Made by a program: the position numbers and the translations under genes. Shown here piece by piece: positions 3,315-49,580 of a stretch of DNA of 51,921 nucleotides (position 1 is its first letter; each line of letters begins with the position of its first letter). This DNA is from Actinomycetes bacterium (GTDB taxonomy: Bacteria; Actinomycetota; Acidimicrobiia; Acidimicrobiales; JAJZXF01), in NCBI GenBank assembly GCA_021802485.1, contig JAJZXF010000007.1:1-51921 (forward strand). The letters are read 5' to 3'. Below the pieces are notes generated by a model. It worked only from the letters and a program-made list of their open reading frames with translations, was not told where the DNA came from and did not search any database.

Positions 3315-4435
3315 GAGCCGATCCTCTGAGATGTCACGGGATCGAATAGGTGAACCTCGCCCACCACTGCAAGTGCGATCGCGTCCCCGGTTGCAAACGT
3401 CCCAGCTCCCGATCTGGCGCGCGCCGTCACTAGCTGGCCGGTGCCAAGCCGGCACGCGAGCTGCTGGTAGTCACCGAGTTCCTCCACGAGGCTGACGGTC
3501 GCGTGAATCGTCCCCTCAGGATCCGGGCTGAGATGCTCAGCCCGGACACCGGCTAGCACCTCGTCGGAACTAAAGCCGCGCAACGCTACAGAGTGTTCAG
3601 CCCCCAAAGCGATCTCGCCTCCGAGAAAGTTGGCTGAGACCACCCCTGCGGCACCTCCCGAGTTGGCGGTTCCGGAGGTGATATGCGCTGGCAGGATGTT
3701 CATCGGGGGATTGCCAACGAAACCCGCGACAAAGGCGTTGGCCGGCTGCTCGTACACCGCACGCGGCGTACCAACCTGCTGGAGGCGCCCGTCGTGCATG
3801 ACAGCAATGCGATGGCCCATCGTAATCGCCTCGGTCTGATCGTGAGTCACGTAGATTGATGTGGTGCGCAGGCGCGCGTGCATCTCCACTAGCTCAGCTC
3901 GCATCTCTATGCGCAGCTGTGCATCGAGATTGGACAACGGCTCGTCCAGAAGGAACACCGCAGGCCTGCGGACTACTGCCCTCGCAAGAGCAACACGCTG
4001 GCGCTGGCCGCCCGAGAGCTGGGCTGGCTTGCGATCAAGCAGGTGCTCGATCTGCAAACTTTTTGCAACGCGGAGTACGAGCTCACCACGCTCGTTTGAC
4101 GGAAAATGCCTGGAGCGTAGCGGGAATTCAATGTTTCGCCGCACACTCAGATGCGGATAAAGAGCGTAGCTCTGGAACACCATCGCGACGTCGCGATCCT
4201 TCGGGTCCACATCATTGACGACCTGGGTGCCAATGCGCACGGTCCCCTCAGACGGGCTCTCGAGGCCAGCAATCAGGCGGAGCACCGTCGACTTGCCACA
4301 GCCCGACGGGCCGAGGAGCACTAGGAGTTCCCCGGGTTCAGCCTGGAGCGTGAGGTCGCACACAGCCTCCACGTCCCCGTAGCGCTTGCTCACCCGATCG
4401 AGCGCAACTGCTGAGATCTTCCCCTGGTCCGTCAT
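3311..4435 (-). CDS. ABC transporter ATP-binding protein, MalK/UgpC/MsmK type
   Basis: This cytoplasmic ATPase of the importer is 374 aa from ATG 4435, with a GGTGAAG-like site just upstream. An in-frame start at 4522 would add about 29 residues with no family resemblance. Walker A is GPSGCGKST (about residue 40), the Q-loop FQSYALYPHL, the signature LSGGQRQR, Walker B VFLLDEP, and the H-loop YVTHDQTEA. The C-terminal 120 residues form the MOP/TOBE-like regulatory domain of the MalK family, ending LFDPVTSQRIGS. An operon-encoded dedicated ATPase fits the Ugp layout better than a shared MsmK. Confidence 0.9.
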   Translation of the reverse strand: MTDQGKISAVALDRVSKRYGDVEAVCDLTLQAEPGELLVLLGPSGCGKSTVLRLIAGLESPSEGTVRIGTQVVNDVDPKDRDVAMVFQSYALYPHLSVRRNIEFPLRSRHFPSNERGELVLRVAKSLQIEHLLDRKPAQLSGGQRQRVALARAVVRRPAVFLLDEPLSNLDAQLRIEMRAELVEMHARLRTTSIYVTHDQTEAITMGHRIAVMHDGRLQQVGTPRAVYEQPANAFVAGFVGNPPMNILPAHITSGTANSGGAAGVVSANFLGGEIALGAEHSVALRGFSSDEVLAGVRAEHLSPDPEGTIHATVSLVEELGDYQQLACRLGTGQLVTARARSGAGTFATGDAIALAVVGEVHLFDPVTSQRIGS

Positions 4436-4536
4436 GACTTCACCGGCCTCCCCAGTCAAGTCGGGGAACTCGCGGGCTACACCGGCCACCTTCGAGGCTC
4501 CCTCATCGGCACTCGGGCGCAAGGAACGGTTCAGCC

Positions 4537-5985
4537 TCAGAGGCGCGCGTTGTACGACGCGATTGCAGAGTTCGCGCTTCGAACAGCCTCAGCGAGAGCA
4601 ACATCAGGATTCGTCCCCGATGAAATCGACGTCAAGCCGGCTTGGACCGCGTTGTCCACCTGCGTAGACGCCCCAACGACCGCACCCGCTGTAGCGGGGT
4701 CAGCAGGGCTCGCAAGTATCTGGTCATAAGCCACCCTGAAGCCGGGAACCTCTTTCCAGCGGGTCGTGATCGCTGGCATCTTCACCGAAGACTTTCGCAC
4801 CGGCACGTAACCGGTGGCAGCAGCCCACGTAGCCTGCTGCGCAGGAGCCACCAGGTACTTGATGTACTGCCACGCTGCGTCCTGGCGCTCAGGGGGGGAC
4901 CGCTTCACCATGTAAAGACCAGCGCCCCCAACGAAAACCCCACCGCCTTGCGCTGCGGGCCCTGGCATAGGACCGATGCCCAGCTTGACGCGAGAGTACT
5001 GGCCAGCGTTCAGCAAGTACACAACGGTGCCAAGTGCCGCTGAGGTCTCCATGGTCATGGGCGAGATGCGGTTCGCCACAGCAAGCAGGTCATCGTAGCT
5101 GGTCGCTGGCGTCGCCTGTGCAAGCTTGTCATCGATCATGCCCGCCCACCACGAGAACAGCGAACGGCCAAGCGGGCCGTCAAAAACCGCAGCTGTCGCC
5201 CGGCCGGTGCGCCCATTGTCGTGATTGACAAGCGTCCCGTCACCCATTGCAATCCACTCCTCGAAGGTAGACGGCGTGAGCTTCAAACTCATCCCATACT
5301 TCTCCGTTCCCGTGCTTACAATGCGCTTGGAAGCTGCTCGAAGCTCCTGGAGAGTGACCGGGGGCTTCTCGGGATCGAGCCCAGCGCGGCTAAACGCCGC
5401 CTTGTCGTAGTAAAGCACCTGGCTGGAGATGTTGAACGGCATTGCCCACAACGTCCCATCGACGCGGAAGTAATCCACAATTGACGGCACGAAGTCCGAA
5501 AGCGGATACCGTTCGGCATTCACCGCTGCCTGGGCAGGAACGATACTCTGGCTGTCAATCATCAGAGCCAGATCAGACGACTCGATCTGCACGACGTCCG
5601 GAAGGTTCCCGCCACTCAGCGCAGCGGTGTACAAAGTGAGGGTGTCCGGGTAATCGTTCTGGTTCACGAGGCTCACGCGGACATCATGTTGCGATGCGTT
5701 GAACGCTTTCGTGAGCCCGGAAAGCGCGGTGAGATTCGCACTGGTCATCGAGTGCCAGAACGTAACGGGCACCGGTTTCGACCTCGCTCTAGCAGAAGCG
5801 CCAAGCGGGAAACTAGGCAGCGCGCCTGGTGCACGGCCAGAACCGTTCGGTGCACTCGATGACGAGCAGGCACCTAGAACAAGTCCCGCGGCGCCGACCG
5901 AGATCGCGCCCGCAAGAAACTGGCGCCGATCGAAGGGCCGCTCACCTCGACCAGCCTGGGCTCCGCCTTCGTTAACATTAGGCAT
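4537..5985 (-). CDS. Extracellular solute-binding lipoprotein, UgpB-like, Tat-type signal
   Basis: This periplasmic or cell-surface binding protein captures the substrate for the importer. It is 482 aa from ATG 5985 with an excellent AAGGAGG site. The N-terminus has twin arginines (DRRQFLAGAISVG) and a lipobox LGAC near residue 40, so export by Tat and lipid anchoring are likely. The mature protein begins VTFWHSMTSANLTALSGL; FWHSM followed by a helix is typical of UgpB and its relatives. Later segments (LPDVVQIESSDLALM, GTLWAMPFNIS, QDAAWQYIKYL) also fit family 1 binding proteins. It is the first gene of the four-gene operon. The true substrate (glycerol-3-phosphate, glycerophosphodiesters or sugars) cannot be read from sequence. 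Confidence 0.87.
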   Translation of the reverse strand: MPNVNEGGAQAGRGERPFDRRQFLAGAISVGAAGLVLGACSSSSAPNGSGRAPGALPSFPLGASARARSKPVPVTFWHSMTSANLTALSGLTKAFNASQHDVRVSLVNQNDYPDTLTLYTAALSGGNLPDVVQIESSDLALMIDSQSIVPAQAAVNAERYPLSDFVPSIVDYFRVDGTLWAMPFNISSQVLYYDKAAFSRAGLDPEKPPVTLQELRAASKRIVSTGTEKYGMSLKLTPSTFEEWIAMGDGTLVNHDNGRTGRATAAVFDGPLGRSLFSWWAGMIDDKLAQATPATSYDDLLAVANRISPMTMETSAALGTVVYLLNAGQYSRVKLGIGPMPGPAAQGGGVFVGGAGLYMVKRSPPERQDAAWQYIKYLVAPAQQATWAAATGYVPVRKSSVKMPAITTRWKEVPGFRVAYDQILASPADPATAGAVVGASTQVDNAVQAGLTSISSGTNPDVALAEAVRSANSAIASYNARL

Positions 5986-6856: not shown

Positions 6857-7552
6857 TTAGCTCCTCTCGCCAGCGTGCGAGCCCCCGCCTTCGCCACCCG
6901 AAGGACCCGACGACGTACTCGCAGCTTCCACTCCAGGTGCTGAAGCCCCCTCCGGCGTTTCCGCCGCCCCCTCGGGCGCCTCCGAAGCCACCGCCACAAC
7001 AGGCGGTTGCGCAACGACAAGCACCACATCCGCATCGGCTTCCAGAGACACACCTTCAGGCACCACGACGTCGCCTACCCTGATCGAGTCCCCAATGGCC
7101 ATCGCGCTTACATCGGCCTCTATTGCACGGGGAATACGATCGGGCACTGCCTTCACAGAGAGTGCAAACAGTTGCTGCTCGATCAGACCACCCGCCCTGT
7201 GGACCTCAAGCGACTCGCCCACAAGTACCACCGGCACCTCCGAGACGACCTCTTCGTCGCGCCTTACAATTTGGAAGTCCACGTGAAGCAAGATGCCACG
7301 CGTAGGGTGCCTCTGCAGCTCTCGCGCCAGGGCAAGGTGCCGGTCCTTGCCCATCTCCAGCGTGAGAAGAGCGTTCAGACCGGCCTCGGTGGAAAGAGCA
7401 TGTTGGAGCTCGCGCGCGTCCACGACAATCGCCAGGGCATCTGCCCCATGGCCGTAGATGATCGCGGGCACCTTGCCCTCAGAGCGCATACGGCGACTCG
7501 AACGCGACCCCAGGTCAGGACGCGGCTCAACATTAAGAGTGATCTCGGGCAT
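6857..7552 (-). CDS. rplY: 50S ribosomal protein bL25 (CTC form)
   Basis: bL25 binds 5S rRNA in the large ribosomal subunit. The 231-aa protein has the L25 domain at residues 1-92 (LNVEPRPDLGSRSSRRMR, VPAIIYGHGADALAI) and the C-terminal TL5/CTC beta domain to about residue 185 (VVSEVPVVLVGESLEV, LADADVSAMAIGDSIRV-like). A low-complexity tail rich in Ala, Glu, Gly and Ser follows. Such tails are common in actinobacterial CTC proteins. ATG 7552 gives the canonical N-terminus. It lies 65 nt after prs. Confidence 0.94.
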   Translation of the reverse strand: MPEITLNVEPRPDLGSRSSRRMRSEGKVPAIIYGHGADALAIVVDARELQHALSTEAGLNALLTLEMGKDRHLALARELQRHPTRGILLHVDFQIVRRDEEVVSEVPVVLVGESLEVHRAGGLIEQQLFALSVKAVPDRIPRAIEADVSAMAIGDSIRVGDVVVPEGVSLEADADVVLVVAQPPVVAVASEAPEGAAETPEGASAPGVEAASTSSGPSGGEGGGSHAGERS

Positions 7553-7617
7553 GCAAAGCTACACTAGTCGAACAAACCCAGGCCTAGCGAGACGACCGGC
7601 CAAGAGGACAGAAGGCT

Positions 7618-8589
7618 TCATGCGAGGTTCTCCCCACCGAAGATCTCTGACACCGAGGTATCCTCGAAGACGGCATCTATCGCGTCGGCAATGATGCTCG
7701 CAACGGATAGGACCTCGAGCTTGTCCATCTGCCTATGCTCTGGTATCGGCAGGGTGTTGGTCACCACCACCCGCGAGACCGCCGAAGCCTTTAGGCGATC
7801 CGTCGCAGGCTCGGAAAGGATGCCGTGCGTAGCCATTGCCCACACCTCCGTAGCGCCTCTCTCCAGCAAGAGATCGGCCGCAGCGCAGATGGTGCCCGCT
7901 GTGTCGATCATGTCGTCGATGATCACGCATCGGCGCCCCTCGACGTCACCGACGACCTCACGAGCCTCGACGGTGTTCGCCTTCCCCCTCGGACGGCGCT
8001 TGTGAACGAGTGCGAGGTCCGTACCGAGATTCTGGCTGAAGCGCTCCGCCACCTTAACCCGTCCCGCGTCCGGCGCCACGACCACCATGCCCTTGGGATC
8101 GTTCGCACGAAGGTAGTCGACAAGCACAGGCATAGCGGTTAGATGGTCTACAGGTACATCAAAAAATCCCTGTATCTGGCCAGAGTGCAGATCCACGCTC
8201 ACCACCCGGTCCACGCCTGCGACCGATAACATGTCGGCAACCAGCTTGGATGTGATCGGCTCCCTCCCCGTAGCCTTGCGATCCTGGCGCGAGTAGCCAT
8301 AGTACGGACATACTGCTGTGATTCTCTTCGCTGAAGCCCTCTTCGCGGCGTCGATCATGATTAAGTGCTCCAAGATCGAGTCATTGACCGGACCACAATG
8401 GGTCTGAATGATGAAAACATCAGAGCCCCGTATGGACTGGCCGTACCTGCAGTGGATCTCTCCATCGGCAAACTCTTTCAGGAACACCTCGCCGAGCGAG
8501 ATGTTGAGATGTGAGGCTATCTCCTCCGCAAGCTCAGGGTGCGACCTTCCGCTGAACAACTCCAGGCGACGCCTGGATACCAGCTCCAT
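7618..8589 (-). CDS. prs: Ribose-phosphate pyrophosphokinase
   Basis: This enzyme makes PRPP from ribose-5-phosphate and ATP for nucleotide, His and Trp synthesis. The 323-aa protein has the class I Prs signatures: FADGEIHCRYGQSIRGSDVF, the ATP-site segment YYGYSRQDRKATGREPIT, the divalent-metal motif DLHSGQIQGFFDVPVDHL, the flexible KRR loop VHKRRPRG, and the PRPP-binding loop CVIIDDMIDTAGT. ATG 8589 is preferred; an in-frame TTG at 8598 lies only 3 nt after the AAGGAG site. It is the first gene of prs-rplY-pth. No glmU precedes it here; instead a divergent carboxylase operon lies upstream. Confidence 0.96.
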   Translation of the reverse strand: MELVSRRRLELFSGRSHPELAEEIASHLNISLGEVFLKEFADGEIHCRYGQSIRGSDVFIIQTHCGPVNDSILEHLIMIDAAKRASAKRITAVCPYYGYSRQDRKATGREPITSKLVADMLSVAGVDRVVSVDLHSGQIQGFFDVPVDHLTAMPVLVDYLRANDPKGMVVVAPDAGRVKVAERFSQNLGTDLALVHKRRPRGKANTVEAREVVGDVEGRRCVIIDDMIDTAGTICAAADLLLERGATEVWAMATHGILSEPATDRLKASAVSRVVVTNTLPIPEHRQMDKLEVLSVASIIADAIDAVFEDTSVSEIFGGENLA

Positions 8590-8658
8590 TACCAGCAACT
8601 GCTCCTTCCATTGTTGTTACCGGCCTGCACGGTCGCGATTTACGTTCCGTGGTGTTCA

Positions 8659-8683
8659 ATGTCACTGGCCTTGCCAGTGACAT
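8659..8683. promoter_or_regulatory. Perfect 11-bp-arm palindrome, probable operator
   Basis: ATGTCACTGGC, then CTT, then GCCAGTGACAT form a perfect dyad between the divergent prs and carboxylase genes. A terminator makes no sense here because both genes start away from it. The symmetry is typical of TetR- or GntR-family operators, which often control acyl-CoA catabolism. The regulator is not encoded nearby. Confidence 0.5.
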
Positions 8684-8761
8684 GCCGGCTCACGACCCGA
8701 GGTTCACACGTCGAGCACAGACCACAAGTCAACCACAACCAGAATAGGCACTGCGTCCAAC

Positions 8762-8793
8762 CAGTGCCCTATTGTTCTCCATCATGGGCACTG
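8762..8793. promoter_or_regulatory. Second CACTG inverted repeat
   Basis: CAGTGCCC at 8762-8769 and GGGCACTG at 8786-8793 are inverted copies, with further GCACTG sequences at 8748-8753 and 8795-8800. They share the CACTG core with the palindrome at 8659-8683, which suggests several binding half-sites in one control region. Confidence 0.35.
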
Positions 8794-8831
8794 CAGCACT
8801 GATCGAGAAGTTGGGACAGCGTCCCTAGCGA

Positions 8832-10433
8832 ATGAGCAACGTTCTCACCAGCAACGTCGACACGTGCTCGTCCGAGTTCGCAGCCAGGCGGGATGCGATG
8901 CTCAAAGCCCTCTCGGAGATCGACTCCCAGCTCGCTCTCGCCTGTGCGGGTGGAGGTGAGCGCTACCTGGCCCGTCATCGCTCCCGCGGCAAGTTGACGG
9001 CCAGGGAGCGCATCGAACTGCTCCTCGACCAGGATGCCCCGTTCCTCGAGCTCTCGCCCCTCGCTGCGTGGGGCACCGGATACACGGTAGGGGCAAGCGT
9101 CGTAGCCGGAATCGGCGTCATAGAAGGAACCGAATGCCTGATCACCGCGAACGACCCCACAGTGCGCGGAGGCGCATCCAACCCCTACACCGTAAGAAAG
9201 GTCTGGCGGGCCTCTGACATCGCCCGCGAAAACCGACTGCCACTCGTAAGCCTCGTAGAGTCCGGCGGCATTGACCTGCCAACCCAAGGCGAGATATTCG
9301 TCCCCGGGGGCCGCATGTTCCGAGATCTCACCCAGCTCTCGGCCGCCGCGATACCCACCGTCGCCCTCGTGTTCGGCAACTCAACTGCCGGTGGGGCCTA
9401 TATTCCCGGCATGTGCGACTACGTTGTGATGGTGGACAAGCGAGCCAAGGTCTTCCTTGGAGGCCCCCCGCTGGTGAAGATGGCCACGGGGGAGGAGGCT
9501 GACGACGAGGAGCTCGGCGGTGCTGAAATGCACGCGAAGGTGAGCGGTCTCGCCGACTACCTGGCAGTCGACGAGCTCGACTGCATCCGCCTCGGCCGCC
9601 AGATCGTGTCGAGGCTGAACCACAAGAAGCTGGGGCCAAGCCCCACCTCGGCAGCTATCCCTCCCCTGTACGACCCCGAGGAGCTGCTCGGGATCGTGTC
9701 GGAATCCGTCCGGGTGCCGTTCGACCCGAGGGATGTCCTGGCCCGCGTCGTCGACGCTTCGCTCTTCGACGAGTTCAAGCCTCTTTACGGCTCCAACCTG
9801 GTCACAGGCTGGGCGGCGGTGCACGGGTACCCCGTGGGGCTTCTTGCGAACCACCGGGGTGTGCTATTCAGTGAGGAGGCCGAGAAGGCCGCTCAGTTCA
9901 TCCAGCTGGCAAACCAGATCGACGTTCCCCTCATCTTCTTGCAGAACACGACCGGGTACATGGTAGGAAAACGCTATGAGCAGGGCGGGATCATCAAGGA
10001 CGGGGCAAAGATGATCAACGCTGTGTCGAACAGCGGCGTGCCGCATATCACAATCAACATGGGAGCTTCTTACGGCGCGGGTAACTACGGCATGTGTGGC
10101 AGAGCATACAATCCGCGCTTTTTGTTCTCCTGGCCAACCTCTCGCACAGCGGTTATGGGGCCCCAACAACTCGCCGGAGTGCTCTCAATCGTCGCTCGCT
10201 CCTCAGCTGCATCGAAGGGCGAACCATTCGACGAGGCCGCGGATGCCAAGATGCGTGAAACCGTGGAGGCCCAGGTGGAGCAGGAGTCCATGCCACTTCA
10301 CGTGACCGCCAGGCTCTTCGATGACGGCATCATCGACCCACGCGACACCCGAGACATTCTCGGCATATGCCTTTCGGCCATCTCCAACAACGAGATCAAG
10401 GGGCGCCGCGGGTACGGCGTCTTCCGGATGTGA
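8832..10433 (+). CDS. Acyl-CoA carboxylase beta (carboxyltransferase) subunit, MCC/geranyl-CoA type
   Basis: This subunit transfers the carboxyl group from carboxybiotin to an acyl-CoA. The 533-aa protein has two crotonase-fold halves. The N-half has RGKLTARERIELLLD, VESGGIDLPTQGEIF, TAGGAYIPGM and FLGGPPLVKMATGE. The C-half has GYPVGLLANHRGVLFSEEAEKA, FLQNTTGYMVGKRYEQGG and SYGAGNYGMCGRAYNPRFLF. FLQNxTGxMVGxxYE and GAGNYGMCGRA are typical of 3-methylcrotonyl-CoA and geranyl-CoA carboxylases rather than propionyl-CoA enzymes. It is the first gene of a plus-strand operon with the alpha subunit, an AtuA-family gene and an acyl-CoA dehydrogenase. A small GGGAC-AGC-GTCCC hairpin ends 6 nt before ATG 8832, and no strong ribosome site is visible. 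The exact substrate is unresolved. Confidence 0.9.
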   Translation: MSNVLTSNVDTCSSEFAARRDAMLKALSEIDSQLALACAGGGERYLARHRSRGKLTARERIELLLDQDAPFLELSPLAAWGTGYTVGASVVAGIGVIEGTECLITANDPTVRGGASNPYTVRKVWRASDIARENRLPLVSLVESGGIDLPTQGEIFVPGGRMFRDLTQLSAAAIPTVALVFGNSTAGGAYIPGMCDYVVMVDKRAKVFLGGPPLVKMATGEEADDEELGGAEMHAKVSGLADYLAVDELDCIRLGRQIVSRLNHKKLGPSPTSAAIPPLYDPEELLGIVSESVRVPFDPRDVLARVVDASLFDEFKPLYGSNLVTGWAAVHGYPVGLLANHRGVLFSEEAEKAAQFIQLANQIDVPLIFLQNTTGYMVGKRYEQGGIIKDGAKMINAVSNSGVPHITINMGASYGAGNYGMCGRAYNPRFLFSWPTSRTAVMGPQQLAGVLSIVARSSAASKGEPFDEAADAKMRETVEAQVEQESMPLHVTARLFDDGIIDPRDTRDILGICLSAISNNEIKGRRGYGVFRM

Positions 10434-14562: not shown

Positions 14563-15723
14563 ATGGACTTCCTCGAAACAGACGAGCAGACGATGCTGCG
14601 TGAAGCCGTTGCGGGCATCGCGGCAAACTACGGCCACGGCTACTACGTTGAGCGAGCAAAGGCCGACGGCAAGACAACAGAGCTCTGGGACGAGCTGGGC
14701 AAGGCCGGGTACCTCGGCGTAAACGTCCCCGAAGCCTACGGCGGAGGGGGGATGGGAATCTATGAACTCGGGATCGTGGCCGAGGAGCTTGCGGCGAAAG
14801 GCTGTCCGCTCCTGCTTATCATCGTCTCCCCCGCGATCTGCGCCACCATCATCGCTCGCTTCGGGACGCAAGAACAGTGCACCCGCTGGCTGCCCAAGTT
14901 CGCCTCAGGTGAGCGGAAGATGGCTTTTGCGATCACCGAGCCAGACGCGGGCTCCAACTCCCACAACATCTCCACCACCGCAACGCGTGACGGTGACATC
15001 TACCGCCTCAACGGCACCAAGTACTACATCTCGGGGGCAGACGAAGCTTCCAGCGTGCTCGTCGTGACGAGGACCGGAACGGACGAGGCGACCGGATATG
15101 GCCGGCTTTCGCTCTTCATCGTAGATCTCGACGCTCCAGGACTTTCAAAGACGCTCATCCCGGTGGAGATCACAGCACCGGAGAAGCAGTTCACGCTCTT
15201 CTTCGACAATGTAGAAGTTCCATCTGACCGGCTGCTCGGTGCGGAAGGCGAAGGGCTCCGCCAAGTCTTCTTCGGACTAAACCCGGAGCGCATCCTGACA
15301 GCCGCCACTGCCACGGGAATCGGGCGTTACACACTCGAGAAAGCGTCTGCGTACGCGCGTGACAGGCGGGTATGGGGTGTGCCGATCGGTGCACATCAAG
15401 GCCTCGCCCATCCTCTCGCCAAGATCAAGGTGGAACTGGAGATGGCCCGCTTGATGTTCCAAAAGGCCGCCTGGCTGTACGACGTCGGACGTTCCCAAGA
15501 AGCTGGCGAGGCGGCCAACATGGCAAAATATGCCTCTGCAGAGGCTGCGCTCGCCGCGCTCGATCAGTCCATACAGGTCCACGGTGGCAACGGGCTGTCG
15601 AGTGAGTTCGGCCTGGCAGACATGTGGGGAATGACACGGCTCCTTCGCACAGCCCCTGTGAGCCGCGAGATGATCCTCAACTTCGTGGCCCAGCACTCTC
15701 TTGGCCTCCCGAAGTCGTATTGA
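14563..15723 (+). CDS. Acyl-CoA dehydrogenase
   Basis: This FAD flavoenzyme introduces the alpha-beta double bond in an acyl-CoA. The 386-aa protein has the full fold. The N-terminal helical domain contains ELGKAGYLGVNVPEAYGGGG. The FAD/substrate segment is MAFAITEPDAGSNSHNIST, and the middle beta domain contains GTKYYISGADEASSVLVVTR. The C-terminal domain has the motifs QVHGGNGLSSEFGLADMWG and R..RTAPVS.EM. ATG 14563 has AGGAGG 9 nt upstream. As the last gene of the carboxylase operon it parallels AtuD (citronellyl-CoA) or LiuA (isovaleryl-CoA) dehydrogenases, enzymes that generate the carboxylase substrate. No enoyl-CoA hydratase or lyase follows, so the pathway is incomplete at this locus. 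Confidence 0.9.
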   Translation: MDFLETDEQTMLREAVAGIAANYGHGYYVERAKADGKTTELWDELGKAGYLGVNVPEAYGGGGMGIYELGIVAEELAAKGCPLLLIIVSPAICATIIARFGTQEQCTRWLPKFASGERKMAFAITEPDAGSNSHNISTTATRDGDIYRLNGTKYYISGADEASSVLVVTRTGTDEATGYGRLSLFIVDLDAPGLSKTLIPVEITAPEKQFTLFFDNVEVPSDRLLGAEGEGLRQVFFGLNPERILTAATATGIGRYTLEKASAYARDRRVWGVPIGAHQGLAHPLAKIKVELEMARLMFQKAAWLYDVGRSQEAGEAANMAKYASAEAALAALDQSIQVHGGNGLSSEFGLADMWGMTRLLRTAPVSREMILNFVAQHSLGLPKSY

Positions 15724-15864
15724 TGCCAGCGGGCCAATAATCCTCCAGCTCAACACCTGGTTAGCGTCGGCACTCGATGTCCGCAACACGGTTGTCAAGT
15801 AGCAAGTGAGAGATTTCCTTGCGCGCACGGAGAGGGTGTCCCGGGTCTTCCTGACAAACAGGGG

Positions 15865-15898
15865 CCGTATGGCAGTTGGGGTTGAAGCTTCCCAGGTG
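15865..15898 (+). repeat. Partial head of dispersed repeat family (left flank of RHS cassette)
   Basis: CCGTATGGCAGTTGGGGTTG and the adjoining AGCTT..CCAGGTG match the head of the unit at 46704-46932 almost base for base over about 34 nt. It lies 19 bp from the stop of the small gene at 15917 and faces a minus-oriented copy at 17400-17545. The surrounding 15724-15916 holds no gene that I can support. Confidence 0.75.
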
Positions 15899-15916
15899 AC
15901 CCCTCGGGATCGAGGC

Positions 15917-16282
15917 TCAGATCTTCAGCCAGGTCGCCCGCACCACTGGGCCGGTCGGATGAATTCCACATGCTTCTAGCCGTCGCAGAAACCGACGTGG
16001 GAAAAGCCCCCTAGCAACGGTCCAAGGGCTTTCGAATCCAGTCGCGTAAAAACGCACGCCATAATGTTGGGTTGGTTCAATCTTAGTTATGCATTCACGG
16101 CGTACGCTCCATTTTGCCCTAGCAAATACAAGGAGTGGCCCGGTATCAAAGAATAACTCATCTGCGGTTATCGTCATCTTGGCTGACGGCCAACCGACAA
16201 ACACTGCAGCCACCCCATGCGGCACATACCTCAAGTCGCAGCGAAGCGTTACCCGGTCGGTCACTTTATCTGCTGCTACCAT
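15917..16282 (-). CDS. Small PH-like/unknown protein overlapping the RHS fragment
   Basis: This is a 121-aa protein from ATG 16282; the start overlaps the end of the RHS gene (stop TAG 16276-16278) by 7 nt. It reads VPHGVAAVFVGWPSAKMTIT, then an FFDTGPLLVFARAKWSVRR segment and IEPTQHYGVRFYATG, a strand-rich pattern that resembles small bacterial PH-like domains. No signal peptide is seen. A small gene coupled to the 3' end of an RHS gene is the classic position of an immunity gene, but I do not recognise a known immunity family. The frame extends upstream to 16501, which would overlap the RHS coding region heavily. Confidence 0.5.
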   Translation of the reverse strand: MVAADKVTDRVTLRCDLRYVPHGVAAVFVGWPSAKMTITADELFFDTGPLLVFARAKWSVRRECITKIEPTQHYGVRFYATGFESPWTVARGLFPRRFLRRLEACGIHPTGPVVRATWLKI

Positions 16283-17394
16283 AGCTGCTGCGTCCACGAA
16301 TAGCTGAGCCCGCCGCCTGCTGAAGCCGGTATCATCGGGAACTCGGCAGCCACGCCAGCTTCTATCACTGCGCCGGTGATCGTTGAGTTGTGCTTTCCGT
16401 TCCCGATGAATCCAGAACCCTCGACAGTCGGACTGGCATCTGGTCCTATTGTGGCACCTCCATTGACGTAGCCAAACGCACCGCCAAGCTCCTTCACACA
16501 AGTTGCGTTGCTGAAGAGCAGGCCGCCGGAGATCGATGCAGTCGGGCTCTCGCCGCCACCACCGAGCGTTTCAACAAGGCCACCACTACGAAAGCCATTA
16601 CTCTCCACAAGGCATACCTGCGCGGTACCGAAGCTCTGGCCGGTGTTCCAGTCCATCGCATAGAGCATCTGCGAGGAGTTGTACATGTCGGTCACCGAGG
16701 AGTTGCCTGCTTTAGAGAGCACAGAGGTTGTAGTCATCACACCAGCTGGGTTGTAGCCATAGCTCGTTGACGTCGAGCTGGACTGAGGGTAGGTGATCTC
16801 ATCGAGGTGGGAGTTCGCACCGTAGGCAAAGCTCGTCGTGTCACCGAGGCCGTCGTTGACTGAGACCATGAGCCCATCAAGATACGTATAGCTCACCTCG
16901 GTTCCCCCCGCATAGGAGATGTGTGTGAGTTCTCCTATCGGATCATAGGAGTAGCTGATCGGCTGTTCTTGGAATGCAGTCTCGGTTGAGTCCGAGGTGG
17001 TGGACTCTGTCGACTCTGTGAGGCCTGCTGCGGTATCTGCGCTCGCATCGGCATCGAGGACCTTCGAGGTGAGCTGGCCTGCGTTGTCGTAGTAGTACGT
17101 CGTGGTCCCTGAGGCATCTGTGACGGTCTTTTTCTCACCGATAGCGTTGTAGGTATGCGACACAGATGGAGTCGAGTCCGAGTAGCTCACACTTTCGAGC
17201 TGTCTTAGGTCGTTGTACACGTACGTGGTCGTCACCCCGAGTGGATCGGTCCTTTTCACCTTGTCACTCAGCACCTCGTCGTAGCTGTCTGCTCCTTTGG
17301 ACCCCCGATCCACCAGCTTTGATCCCCCGTAGCTGCGATACGCCGCTACGGGTGGATAAAAGGGGACCACGAGTACTGGCCAAGGGGGGTGAAG
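16276..17394 (-). pseudogene. 3' fragment of an RHS/YD-repeat protein
   Basis: The open frame (about 370 codons) contains typical YD repeats: TTTYVYNDLRQLESVSYSD, SHTYNAIGEKKTVTDASGTT, YYYDNAGQLTSKVLDADASA and ISYSYDPIGELTHISYAGGT. RHS proteins are usually well over 1000 residues with an N-terminal export region. Here everything upstream is missing, and the frame ends at a stop at 17395-17397, next to a copy of the dispersed repeat. The last ~110 residues (GGLVETLGGGGESPTASIS, LFSNATCVKELGGAFGYVNG) form a Gly-rich C-terminal domain seen at the end of many actinobacterial RHS proteins; I recognise no nuclease or other toxin motif in it. It could still be expressed from GTG 17370. Confidence 0.75.
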
Positions 17395-17399
17395 CTATT

Positions 17400-17545
17400 G
17401 GCGCTATGCCAACCTGGAAAGCCTCAAAGCTCGACTGCTATACAGCGGGTCAGTCACCCACCTCGTGTTCTCGCTCAAAACCGTCCCGTTGCTCTGTTTG
17501 ATCTGGCGAGCCGCCGTCGTGCAAAGTCGCGGGTTCGCGGTGCCT
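17400..17545 (-). repeat. Dispersed repeat copy, minus orientation (right flank of RHS cassette)
   Basis: Read on the minus strand, the segment GAGGTGGGTGAC..CCCGCTGTATAGCAGT..GAGGCTTTCCAGGTTGGC at 17466-17405 aligns with the head of the 46704 unit. The preceding bases (near 17495-17515, GATCAAACAGAGCAACGGGACG) align with the tail of the 46461 unit. It therefore spans a unit-unit junction. It sits directly where the RHS reading frame breaks off. Confidence 0.75.
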
Positions 17546-17549
17546 TGCA

Positions 17550-17613
17550 GCCTCATCCACGAGTGCCAAATCGCGGTTTGAACTGGAGGCACTTGGTTCT
17601 CGGCACCCACAGG
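17550..17613 (+). repeat. 64-bp repeat R, copy 1
   Basis: This segment matches the reverse complement of 48311-48374 at 55 of 64 positions. Its conserved core is TTGAACTGGAGG and GGTTCTCGGCACCCACAGG. In both places it lies just upstream of the large dispersed repeat, in the same relative orientation, so it may be an outer part of the same element. The remaining 17614-17876 holds nothing I can support. Confidence 0.7.
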
Positions 17614-17876
17614 GCGCCGATGTCCGTGCTTCCCGGCTTGCGCACCTGTACCGGCGATCGGCCACGGCCCTCCCACTCGGGTTGGCGCACCTCGGACGGA
17701 TGAATCGCCGCGCCGGCGTAACCACTTGAGATGGTCGAGGCAGTCAGTTCACTCGCGAACCGAAACTGGACCTCGCCAGCTGACCTCGGGCATTGAGCGC
17801 CAGCACGGAAACCCCGTCACACCTCCGTCAAGTGCGATTAAATGAATATCCTCATTACAACTAACGTGGTGGCAAA

Positions 17877-18692
17877 CTAGCGAGCAGTCCAGCCGCAGTC
17901 AACGAGCACGTCCGTGCCCGTCATGAATGTCGACCCGTTGCCAGCAAGGAAGACGATCACCTCTGCGATCTCCTCCGGGCTTGCCCAGCGGCCGAACGCC
18001 TGCTCTTGCTCGCGCTCGGCTCGAACCTCGGAAACCGGCCTGTGCTGTCTCACTGCCTCGCCCTCGACATCGCTCCTAAGCATCGGGGTATCCACCGACC
18101 CCGGGCTCAGAGAGTTCACTCTAATACCTGCGGGAGCCAGCTCCCATGCAAGTGCACGGGTGAATGATATGATCGCGCCCTTCGTTGCGCCATAGACCGC
18201 ATGGTTTACCTGGCCAACATGACCTGATACCGACGCGACGTTCACGATGGACGCCCCTGCAGGTACAGCCGATAGAAGTGGCAGGAATTCCCTGCACATC
18301 AGCATCGTGCCCCCCAGATTTACATCGACCACGTGGCGGTAGTCATCCCACGTCGTCTCCGCGAGCGGCTTGACAAGAACGACGCCAGCGTTGTTCACCA
18401 GCACATCTACTTTTTCATAGTCATCGTGAACCGCCGAGGCAAGAGCCTTGACGTTATCCTCCGACGTCACGTCGCAACGTCTCGCATCAATAGATCCAGC
18501 AACAGCGCCACTTTCACCAACTGGAATATCGCCAAAATCGGGCAACGACAGGCTGTCCACTGCGATCACTCGCGCCTGATCCCTGCGTGCAAACATCTTT
18601 GCCGCCGCGTAGCCAATCCCCTGCGCCCCACCTGTCACGACCACCACCAGGGGGCGCGACCCCGCCAGCACATCCGATCTTGTGTCGCTCAT
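17877..18692 (-). CDS. Short-chain dehydrogenase/reductase
   Basis: This is a classical SDR of 271 aa that probably oxidises a hydroxy group or reduces a keto group with NAD(P). The Rossmann motif is TGGAQGIG, the structural motif NNAG, and the active site S..(12)..YGATK with SVSGHVGQVNHAVYGATKGA. After it come the family's PGSVDTPM and the C-terminal GTDVLVDCGW. The start ATG overlaps the stop of the BKACE gene (ATGA), so the two are coupled. As last gene of the minus-strand cluster it may supply the keto acid that the BKACE cleaves; this is inference. Confidence 0.9.
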   Translation of the reverse strand: MSDTRSDVLAGSRPLVVVVTGGAQGIGYAAAKMFARRDQARVIAVDSLSLPDFGDIPVGESGAVAGSIDARRCDVTSEDNVKALASAVHDDYEKVDVLVNNAGVVLVKPLAETTWDDYRHVVDVNLGGTMLMCREFLPLLSAVPAGASIVNVASVSGHVGQVNHAVYGATKGAIISFTRALAWELAPAGIRVNSLSPGSVDTPMLRSDVEGEAVRQHRPVSEVRAEREQEQAFGRWASPEEIAEVIVFLAGNGSTFMTGTDVLVDCGWTAR

Positions 18693-41312: not shown

Positions 41313-41375
41313 CGAGATGCATGACGACCCCGCCGGATCCACATCGACTTCAGAGCTTGTCAGGTGGGCACCAAG
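41313..41375 (+). repeat. Dispersed repeat, partial head
   Basis: CGAGATGCATGACGACCCCG and the later AGCTTGTCAGGTGGGCACC follow the head of the repeat unit but stop before the tail. The preceding 41002-41312 shows no gene. Confidence 0.6.
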
Positions 41376-41485
41376 CCGACTTGTCATACCACATCGTCAC
41401 CCTCTCACCCTGACGATCCGCGTACCGGCGGGGCGCGGATCGTTCGTCACATCGTGACTGCCCACCCGTCGTCCTGCGACAACAC

Positions 41486-41715
41486 GGGATATGTGGACAG
41501 ACCTGCTGTATGGCAGTCGCCGTTGGGCTTTCCAGGCAGACACAGGTCCGTGGATCGCACACCATATGGGCAGCAACCCTGAAACGCCTCGTCAGCCGAG
41601 CACGAGCCCAGCGCTCTCCATCGCCCCCTTCCCCCGCCCGCCGCAGCGCACCGCCGGTCCGCCGGACCGCTGGCCGGATCGCACGGAGCGAGCGGAACGC
41701 GAGGCGTGAGAGTCA
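41486..41715 (+). repeat. Dispersed repeat, full unit A (about 230 bp)
   Basis: The head (GCTGTATGGCAGTCGCCGTT, GGGCTTTCCAGG), centre (CCGTGGATCGCACACCATAT), CCTGAAACGCCTCGTCAG, and tail (GAGCCCAGCGCTCTCC; CCGCCGCAGCGCACCGCCGG) follow the same order as the units at 46.2-46.9 kb. Frames across it differ in stop positions from other copies, so it is not a protein-coding repeat. Confidence 0.78.
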
Positions 41716-41761
41716 CACGAGATGCGTGATGGGCCCGTTGTATGCGGAACACGGTTGAGCG
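41716..41761 (+). repeat. Dispersed repeat, partial head after unit A
   Basis: CACGAGATGCGTGATGGGCC followed by CGTTGTATGCGGAACACGG starts another unit directly after unit A, then the similarity stops. Confidence 0.55.
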
Positions 41762-46231: not shown

Positions 46232-46460
46232 CGAGATGCGTGACGAACCAGCTGTATGTGGCACAGGGCTGATCTTTTCAGGTGGGTATAGCGCCTTGGG
46301 TCACCCAACATATGGGACAAGCCCCCTGAAAAGCCTCGCACGCGAGCGCGAGCCCAGTGCTCTCGCGGCCCCTCCCTGCCAGCCGCCGCAGCGCACCGCC
46401 GGTCTGCGCACCGCTGGCCGAAGTGAGCGGGACGGACGGGACGTGGGCCTCCCTGCCACA
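46232..46460 (+). repeat. Dispersed repeat array, unit B (229 bp)
   Basis: The unit runs from CGAGATGCGTGACGAACCAG through GATCTTTTCAGGTGGG and CCCCCTGAAAAGCCTCG to the GCCGCCGCAGCGCACCGCCGG-like tail. Within it CTTTTCAGG (about 46274-46282) and CCTGAAAAG (about 46324-46332) are perfectly complementary, so a stem-loop with an approximately 40-nt loop is possible. Confidence 0.8.
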
Positions 46461-46703
46461 CGAGATGCTGACAAAGCCGCTGTCTGGCATTCACCGTTGA
46501 GCTTTTCAGGTGGGCTCCGTGGGGTCACACACCATATGGGGCAGCAACCCCCCTGAGAAGCCTCGTCAGCGAGCGCGAGCCCAGCACTCTCCTCAGCCCC
46601 TTCCTTCCCCCCAGCCGCTGCAACGCACCGCCGGTCCACGATCCGGATCGACGGATCGATCAACAGCGACAACGGGACGCGTGGGCGTTGCCCTCTGTGC
46701 GAG
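46461..46703 (+). repeat. Dispersed repeat array, unit C (243 bp)
   Basis: This unit follows unit B without a gap. It begins CGAGATGCTGACAAAGCCGC and carries TTGAGCTTTTCAGGTGGGC, CACACCATATGGGGCAGC, CCTGAGAAGCCTCGTCAGC, GAGCCCAGCACTCTCC and the GCAACGCACCGCCGGTCC tail. A linker GATCAACAGCGACAACGGGA recurs at the 17.5-kb copy. Confidence 0.8.
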
Positions 46704-46932
46704 CGAGGTGCGCGACAAATCCGCCGTATGGCAGTTGGGGTTGAGCTTTCCAGGTGGGCACAGCTCCGTGGATTACACACCGTATGGGGAGCAACCCCCT
46801 GAGAAGCCTCGTCAGCGAGCGCGAGCCCAGCACTCTCCGCGGCCCTTCCCCCCGCACGACGCAGCGCACCGCCGGTCCGCGAGCCGGGGGCCTGACCGCA
46901 CGGAGCGGACGGATCGGGGGCCCGCGGAGACA
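46704..46932 (+). repeat. Dispersed repeat array, unit D (229 bp)
   Basis: This unit follows unit C without a gap. It starts CGAGGTGCGCGACAAATCCG and has CCGTATGGCAGTTGGGGTTG, the same bases found at 15865. It ends near CACGG at 46932. A degenerate new head (GATGCGAGATGGACCTGGTG) follows at 46935-46960, then similarity ends. From there to 47152 I see no gene. Confidence 0.8.
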
Positions 46933-47152
46933 CGGGATGCGAGATGGACCTGGTGTATAGCTGAGGGAGAACCGAGCCAACTTGTCTACCGCGGGCTGCG
47001 TCCAGGACCCTGAACCGGCCTGCACACTGACCGGGCGCAGCCGGCATGGTGCGCGGCACGGGCGGGCTCCGACCTGGCGCAACCGGGTTCCAGCCTGACG
47101 CAACGCAGCCCGCCCTTCGATCACCCCGAGTCCGGAGCGTGCCAAGCCTGCG

Positions 47153-48310: not shown

Positions 48311-48374
48311 CCTGTGGGTGCCGAGAACCCCATCCCTCCAGTTCAAGCCGCGATTCAGTAGTCGTGGATGAGGC
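48311..48374 (-). repeat. 64-bp repeat R, copy 2
   Basis: This is the inverted copy of 17550-17613 (55 of 64 positions identical). On the plus strand it begins CCTGTGGGTGCCGAGAACC and ends GTGGATGAGGC. About 35 bp further on, 48405-48450 resembles the tail of the dispersed repeat (CGCGGCCCCTCCC, GCCGCAGCGCCG). No gene is seen between 48092 and 48594. Confidence 0.7.
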
Positions 48375-48594
48375 CACCGAGGACCTCGGATCGTAGGACT
48401 CCCCGCGGCCCCTCCCACCACCTGCCGCAGCGCCGTATCGCCGCGGCCACGAAAGAGCGCCGCGTTGCGCAAGCCCAATGGCATTAAGTTACGGTGGCGA
48501 TGACATCAGCCAGAATCTGATCACCACGAGCGGGGTCAGCTTGGCTGTCTGGCCGGGCTTGCGGGTCTTGTAGCGGCCGCGGGAGCGCGGGATA

Positions 48595-48769
48595 CGAGAT
48601 GCGAGACGGACATGGCGCATGCGGAACAAGCTTGGGCTTCTCAGGCAGAAACAGTGCCGTGGCCGCACCACCATATGGGGCCCTCGCCAACCCTGAAAAG
48701 CCTCGTCAGCGAGCGCGAGCCCACTGCCCTCCATCGCTCCCCTTCCCCCATCCAGCCGCCGCAGCGCCA
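48595..48769 (+). repeat. Dispersed repeat, unit E (short tail)
   Basis: ACGAGATGCGAGACGGACAT, GGGCTTCTCAGGCAG, CACCACCATATGGGG, CCCTGAAAAGCCTCGTCAGC, GAGCGCGAGCCCACTGCCC and CCAGCCGCCGCAGCG follow the unit order. The linker part of the tail is missing, giving about 175 bp. Confidence 0.75.
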
Positions 48770-48771
48770 CA

Positions 48772-48875
48772 CGAGATGCATGACACTCCCGCCGTATACC
48801 GTACGGGGTTCGGCCTTTCAGGTCGCCACGACACAGTGGATCGGACACCATGTGGCCAGCCACCCCTCGTATCGC
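48772..48875 (+). repeat. Dispersed repeat, unit F (head and centre)
   Basis: CGAGATGCATGACACTCCCG, CCGTATACCGTACGGGGTTC, GGCCTTTCAGGTCGCC and GTGGATCGGACACCATGTGG correspond to head and centre. A separate tail piece (CCAGCCGCCGCAGCGCACCC) appears at 49000-49020. Confidence 0.6.
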
Positions 48876-48984
48876 CGGACCTGCCGAACGCGGTCCGCTT
48901 GGCGAGACGGCGGAGCGCTGTGTCACCGTAGCGACGCAGAGCGCCGCGTTCCGCGAGATACGCCAGCTGGCCGGCCAACCGCGC

Positions 48985-49060
48985 CGGTCCCCCCTTCGCC
49001 CCAGCCGCCGCAGCGCACCCCAATCGGCGTATCGCCGGCTGGGGCCGACAGGGACCTGAA
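48985..49060 (+). repeat. Dispersed repeat, tail piece at methyltransferase junction
   Basis: CCCTTCGCCCCAGCCGCCGC followed by AGCGCACCCCAATCGGCG resembles the repeat tail. It runs up to about 49060, where methyltransferase-like coding sequence on the minus strand begins. Confidence 0.5.
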
Positions 49061-49245
49061 TGGTCGCCACCCGAGCCAGCTCGCGCACCATCTCCCGGGC
49101 GCGCTTCGCGGCCACCCGCAGCAGCGCAGGCTCGAAATCGACCCCAACGACCCGGCCACCCCGCTCGGCCGCCAACAGCGCCGCATTGCCCGTGCCAGCG
49201 GCAACGTCCAGCACCCGGTCCCCGGGCACAACCGAGGCCGAGCGT
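49060..49245 (-). pseudogene. SAM-dependent methyltransferase stump
   Basis: The frame reads VVPGDRVLDVAAGTGNAALL, then AAERGGRVVGVDFEPALLRV: motif I (DVAAGTG) and the acidic end of strand 2 (VGVD) of class I methyltransferases. Similarity stops after VRELARVATIQVPVG, exactly where repeat tail sequence begins. Upstream sequence (49246-49385) is unlike the family, so both ends seem lost. Confidence 0.65.
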
Positions 49246-49394
49246 GGCGAACCGAGTCCTCCGTCGCAGCGCATCTCGACTCCGACAGCGCCAAGCGTAC
49301 TGTCGACGCAAGGGCGCGCAGTCGGCGGGGAACCGGGCCTCACGTCAAGGGCACCATCGCGGTGAACGCCACTCACAGTGGCCACGAGCCCCCG

Positions 49395-49580
49395 GTGGCT
49401 GAGTAGGGCAACTGCATGGGGACCCGAGCGTCACGGCGCGGGGTCGATGCCCCGACGCTTCATGATTGCCCGGACGCTCGATGGGGCGAGACCGATGCCC
49501 ATGGTGGCGAGCTCGCCATAGATCCGCCCGTAGCCCCTGGTCGGGGGCAGCCCTGGCCCGGAGGTTGCTCCGTCCACGCC
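49395..49580 (-). pseudogene. Integrase-type transposase remnant
   Basis: GYGRIYGELATMGIGLAPSS followed by VRAIMKRRGIDPAP matches the pre-catalytic helix-turn-helix stretch of rve-type (IS3/IS481-like) transposases, in which RRI.GEL..LG...S..TV..IL...GI.PAP is usual. After PAP a stop occurs, and RSGPHAVALL continues in another frame. No DDE residues remain. Confidence 0.6.

Follow-up and report, generated by a model that had tools for sequence, protein, structure and literature searches.

The 2153-bp interval that separates two convergent catabolic genes in the window (the whole 51,921-nucleotide stretch of DNA analysed here, which is contig C90 of G000, a genome of 2.86 Mb in 152 contigs) is probably a patch of foreign or mobile DNA carrying an orphan, decayed RHS tip-immunity module. 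On this reading the locus is a relic of a fairly ordinary kind, an orphaned toxin tip, and mobilisation by the repeats on its flanks is not supported. An uncultured actinobacterial lineage is thereby shown to carry an orphan RHS tip and a putative tip-immunity pair that had no name before; comparison with a sister genome also shows that the inverted repeats, conspicuous as they are, do not delimit the inserted unit.

The RHS fragment and its partner gene

The RHS open reading frame (16276–17370, minus strand; 364 aa) begins in translated repeat DNA, which makes up its upstream end out to 17370; RHS homology sets in at residue ~36 (position ~17265). The YD-repeat region that follows (16631–17265, minus strand) is N-terminally truncated; it is recognised by Pfam RHS_repeat (1.2e-16) and by TIGR01643, and over 217 positions, covering residues 36–247, it is 47% identical to an RHS gene on contig C9 of the same-genus genome G001, located elsewhere in that genome. 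At residue 247 this homology stops, and from residue 251 to the end at residue 364 a different one takes over: across 114 aa, the sequence shares 54% identity with the tip at the C-terminus of a G039 RHS protein, and there is a distant match in G317; the corresponding tip domain, a probable toxin, spans 16276–16620 (minus strand). The fusion point between the two regions (16621–16630, minus strand) lacks the RHS-associated core: no Rhs_assc_core is found in the window protein, the G039 homologue carries TIGR03696 before its tip (E=2.6e-19), and in the G001 protein ~300 residues lie between the matching point and the end of its core. The DPxGL motif is likewise missing at the core-tip boundary, where the YD repeats join the tip directly; the G039 reading frame has DPLGL. 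Given the switch of homology at 247–251 and the missing Rhs_assc_core, the window RHS gene has lost its N-terminus and its core, and with them the delivery part of the protein, and an RHS protein without a core is unlikely to follow the normal delivery route.

The small gene (15917–16282, minus strand; 121 aa), a probable immunity gene, likely starts at the ATG at 16282, which overlaps the RHS stop. One homologue (43%) lies directly downstream of the tip in G039; another (49%) is found in G420, near a contig edge and without a visible tip. Tip and small gene each occur in only three of the 395 genomes of the class, two of which, the window's genome and G039, are common to both. Because the two recur side by side in G039, where the core is present, their assignment as a putative tip-immunity pair, already proposed in the initial annotation, is well supported by sequence comparison; the tip would act as a toxin and the small gene would neutralise it. 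Pfam and solved structures give no match for the tip or for the small protein, whose single-sequence fold is unusable (pLDDT 35). Both genes are intact reading frames and may retain some function; the small gene, for one, could still yield an orphan immunity protein.

Related remains occur elsewhere. On contig C111 of G317, a membrane-protein-like reading frame comes after the distantly related tip, and its tail, judged by eye only, is reminiscent of the small gene. The RHS region of G001 (C9, 3664–9237) is interrupted too: a transposase-like reading frame (3664–4689, assigned by sequence only) stands beside a short RHS-like stretch, and this interrupted part lies upstream of the RHS reading frame at 7375–9237. 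The genome of the window itself contains two more short RHS fragments, at C125 5820–5973 and C66 3180–3410 (79% DNA identity over 89 bp; 31% aa identity over 83).

The corresponding site in a sister genome

To the left, the patch is bordered by an acyl-CoA dehydrogenase gene (14563–15723, plus strand; Pfam Acyl-CoA_dh_1/M/N), whose orthologue on contig C86 of G001 is 89% identical at the amino-acid level, and to the right by an SDR dehydrogenase gene (17877–18692, minus strand; Pfam adh_short_C2), which in G001 adjoins the acyl-CoA dehydrogenase gene. The gene order in G001 is identical (atuA, acyl-CoA dehydrogenase, SDR, BKACE and the next gene); the comparison spans contigs C86 and C15, which overlap by 156 bp at 97%, and the acyl-CoA dehydrogenase/SDR junction itself lies inside one contig. 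Since the two stop codons are only 36 bp apart in G001, the insertion corresponds to 15724–17876.

The direction of this change is inferred from the IS and repeat sequence that is present in the patch and was not found in G001; in a search for an outgroup, the acyl-CoA dehydrogenase gene was not seen beside the SDR gene in the other relatives examined. No convincing target duplication is found at the borders of 15724–17876, where words shared between the flanks are near the number expected by chance. The longest direct word common to the flanks is the 9-bp CGATGTCCG at 15775 and 17618, against ~0.3 nine-base matches expected by chance (our own estimate, 177 x 510 / 4^9).

Two facing copies of a repeat

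The initial annotation had placed the RHS fragment between inward-facing copies of a dispersed repeat, and these copies are real. The left one (15864–15898, plus strand) is a 35-bp fragment of a ~220-bp repeat, 94% identical over those 35 bp to 46723–46756 (E=1.8e-7, whole genome), with an alignment score of 58, where 300 shuffles reach at most 23. The right one faces it on the minus strand and is detected over the segment 17465–17400 (E=1.4e-5). Between them lie, as described, the RHS YD-repeat fragment and the overlapping small gene, whose stop is 18 bp away from the left copy.

On the right, the extent of the repeat had been given as 17400–17545. A copy is indeed present there, but it extends inward to 17299: with a profile built on the genome's own repeat copies, it is a decayed, near-complete unit at 17299–17465 (minus strand; nhmmer 55 bits, profile positions 1–220 with an internal gap; identity ~77%) that reaches into the RHS reading frame. 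It is joined in tandem by a weak, partial second unit at 17481–17550 (minus strand; 10 bits, E=3e-4 in a search of the insert only, profile positions 155–213). The stretch 17299–17400 was also considered as an IS21 end, a candidate dropped because the profile shows it to be the ~220-bp repeat itself. The related claim that the RHS frame breaks exactly at the right copy holds roughly for the homology, which ends at ~17265–17299, but not for the frame, which does not break at 17400 and runs on into repeat DNA as far as 17370.

It is highly improbable that the tip-immunity pair is a cassette moved, or recombining, between these two copies. The facing copies, the restriction of the intervening DNA to the RHS fragment and the small gene, and the absence of the region from G001 all speak for it. 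However, the DNA absent from G001 is not the expected 15865–17545; it overshoots both copies, by 140 bp on the left and by ~410 bp past 17465 on the right, and no matched inverted ends are found at the borders 15724 and 17876. The arms themselves are unequal: they differ in subtype, in divergence and in length, the left one being a 35-bp fragment and the right one a decayed full unit. They share just 35 alignment columns, 27 of them identical, and their closest relatives differ, so that they do not form a matched pair; each seems to be a piece of a common repeat, unrelated to the other.

Nor does the arrangement recur. In a 40-copy catalogue of the repeat, compiled from individually retrieved loci of the genome, 39 copies keep to one orientation per contig, the sole exception being the right copy at 17465–17299; no gene is flanked by inverted pairs among the other 38 copies, which are spread over 12 contigs. 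All other catalogued copies in the genome occur without such a cassette, an outcome that the initial annotation had itself named as refuting the idea. The target duplications that were to be looked for lend the model no support, none beyond chance having been found. Border position, arm matching and recurrence all being against it, the inverted-repeat cassette model fails.

An insertion-sequence end and the origin of the patch

The remainder of the right flank, at 17547–17613 (minus strand), is not repeat; it is the terminus of an insertion sequence of the HTH_21/rve_3 transposase type, with its outer tip TGTGGGTGCCGAGAA at 17613, and the right repeat units abut it. The right flank is therefore IS debris followed by repeat debris. 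This terminus matches the end of an IS copy on contig C46 of G009 (78%), a sequence at window position 48311, and copies on C25. In the more complete G009 copy, inverted ends TGTGGGTGCCGAGAA lie ~1.2 kb from each other, and the transposase reading frames carry HTH_21 and rve_3 domains; in these features the element resembles IS3/IS481-type insertion sequences, a likeness at the level of type, not of exact family. Unlike complete elements of that type, a single 67-bp end is left at this locus.

The second relic of the same terminus in the window (48311–48409, plus strand) is followed by repeat units at 48395–48866, and the same succession of IS terminus and repeat units is found on C25. As a whole, 48311–49545 is a decayed IS (end at 48311–48409, internal piece at 49420–49545), apparently interrupted by the ~220-bp units.

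A composite or solo IS insertion that carried the RHS fragment, with its right border at the IS end at 17613 and its left end lost later, would account for the outward-facing terminus, for the recurrence of IS remnants next to repeat units at the two other places just described, and for the direct repeat CGATGTCCG. We consider it unlikely: the 263 bp past 17613 are also missing from G001, the left flank shows no matching IS end, and a nine-base match in the flank comparison is not far from chance expectation. That the region is instead ancestral and was deleted in G001 is quite unlikely as well; the direction of change is not fixed by an outgroup, but the repeat and the IS terminus, both present in G000 and G009, are found nowhere in G001, and a deletion would need to have removed almost exactly the intergenic DNA. 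If, as we favour, the locus is a decayed module in a patch of foreign or mobile DNA, the DNA of the patch would have arrived by a separate event, through IS activity or illegitimate recombination, and the repeat fragments may either have been part of the mobile-DNA debris already or have joined it later.

Comparison with known orphan modules

Orphan RHS and CDI tip-immunity modules are well described, and orphan CDI tips are sometimes disrupted by IS elements (PMC3150448). The window locus resembles the orphan rhs-CT/rhsI and cdiA-CT/cdiI modules of that study in its displaced C-terminal tip with a small gene immediately downstream, in the remains of the parent gene upstream, which vary between modules, in the mobile-element DNA nearby, and in that related tips are attached to more complete RHS genes elsewhere. 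Unlike the orphan rhs-CT/rhsI modules (PMC3150448), it does not stand beside a full-length rhs gene, and it differs from them further in the direct junction of YD repeats and tip, without RHS-associated core and DPxGL; this motif is typical of the core-tip boundary, though how much of the parent gene is retained differs among orphan modules.

The ~220-bp repeat family

The repeat is patchily distributed. It is like dispersed bacterial intergenic repeats in being apparently non-coding, multicopy and intergenic, and unlike them in its unit length of ~220 bp, its tandem arrays, its single orientation per contig and its lack of RNA structure: as an RNA element it was rejected, with no Rfam match and a folding no better than that of shuffled controls (z 0.58). 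A viral origin was rejected as well, the exact core pattern being missing from viral contigs. In the window, an array without an inverted partner lies at 41313–41760 (plus strand) and three tandem units at 46232–46940 (plus strand), in addition to those at 48395–48866; many more are found on contigs C106, C23, C60 and elsewhere. Most arrays sit close to contig ends, as expected for repeats that break the assembly.

Arrays of the repeat are common to two genomes of different families and missing from the sister species: they are present in G009, which belongs to another family within the same order, and not found in G001. On the 7.2-kb contig C197 of G009 (JAJZBS010000135.1), the arrays are up to 87% identical to the consensus. 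This occurrence, next to none in G001, may reflect binning contamination or horizontal transfer. Among 84,980 species, the exact 21-base core pattern turns up four times; the G009 record is the one hit within repeat arrays recognised in this analysis, and the other three (Chloroflexi, Streptomyces, Phycisphaeraceae) may be due to chance.

It is conceivable, and in our estimate very unlikely, that the arrays are recombination substrates that gather and exchange small conflict genes; the examples that suggest it are the RHS tip pair described here, the SIR2-like, DUF433 and AAA genes on C106, and an AbiEii-like gene that adjoins the arrays in G009. On C106 (1956–10203) the arrays alternate with the SIR2-like gene, the DUF433 gene with a small reading frame, the AAA ATPase and an unnamed 461-aa gene, which looks like a small accessory island; the contig also carries a fragment of a Mutator-family transposase. 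Other array-bearing contigs have ordinary genes nearby (CHAD, acyltransferase, GNAT).
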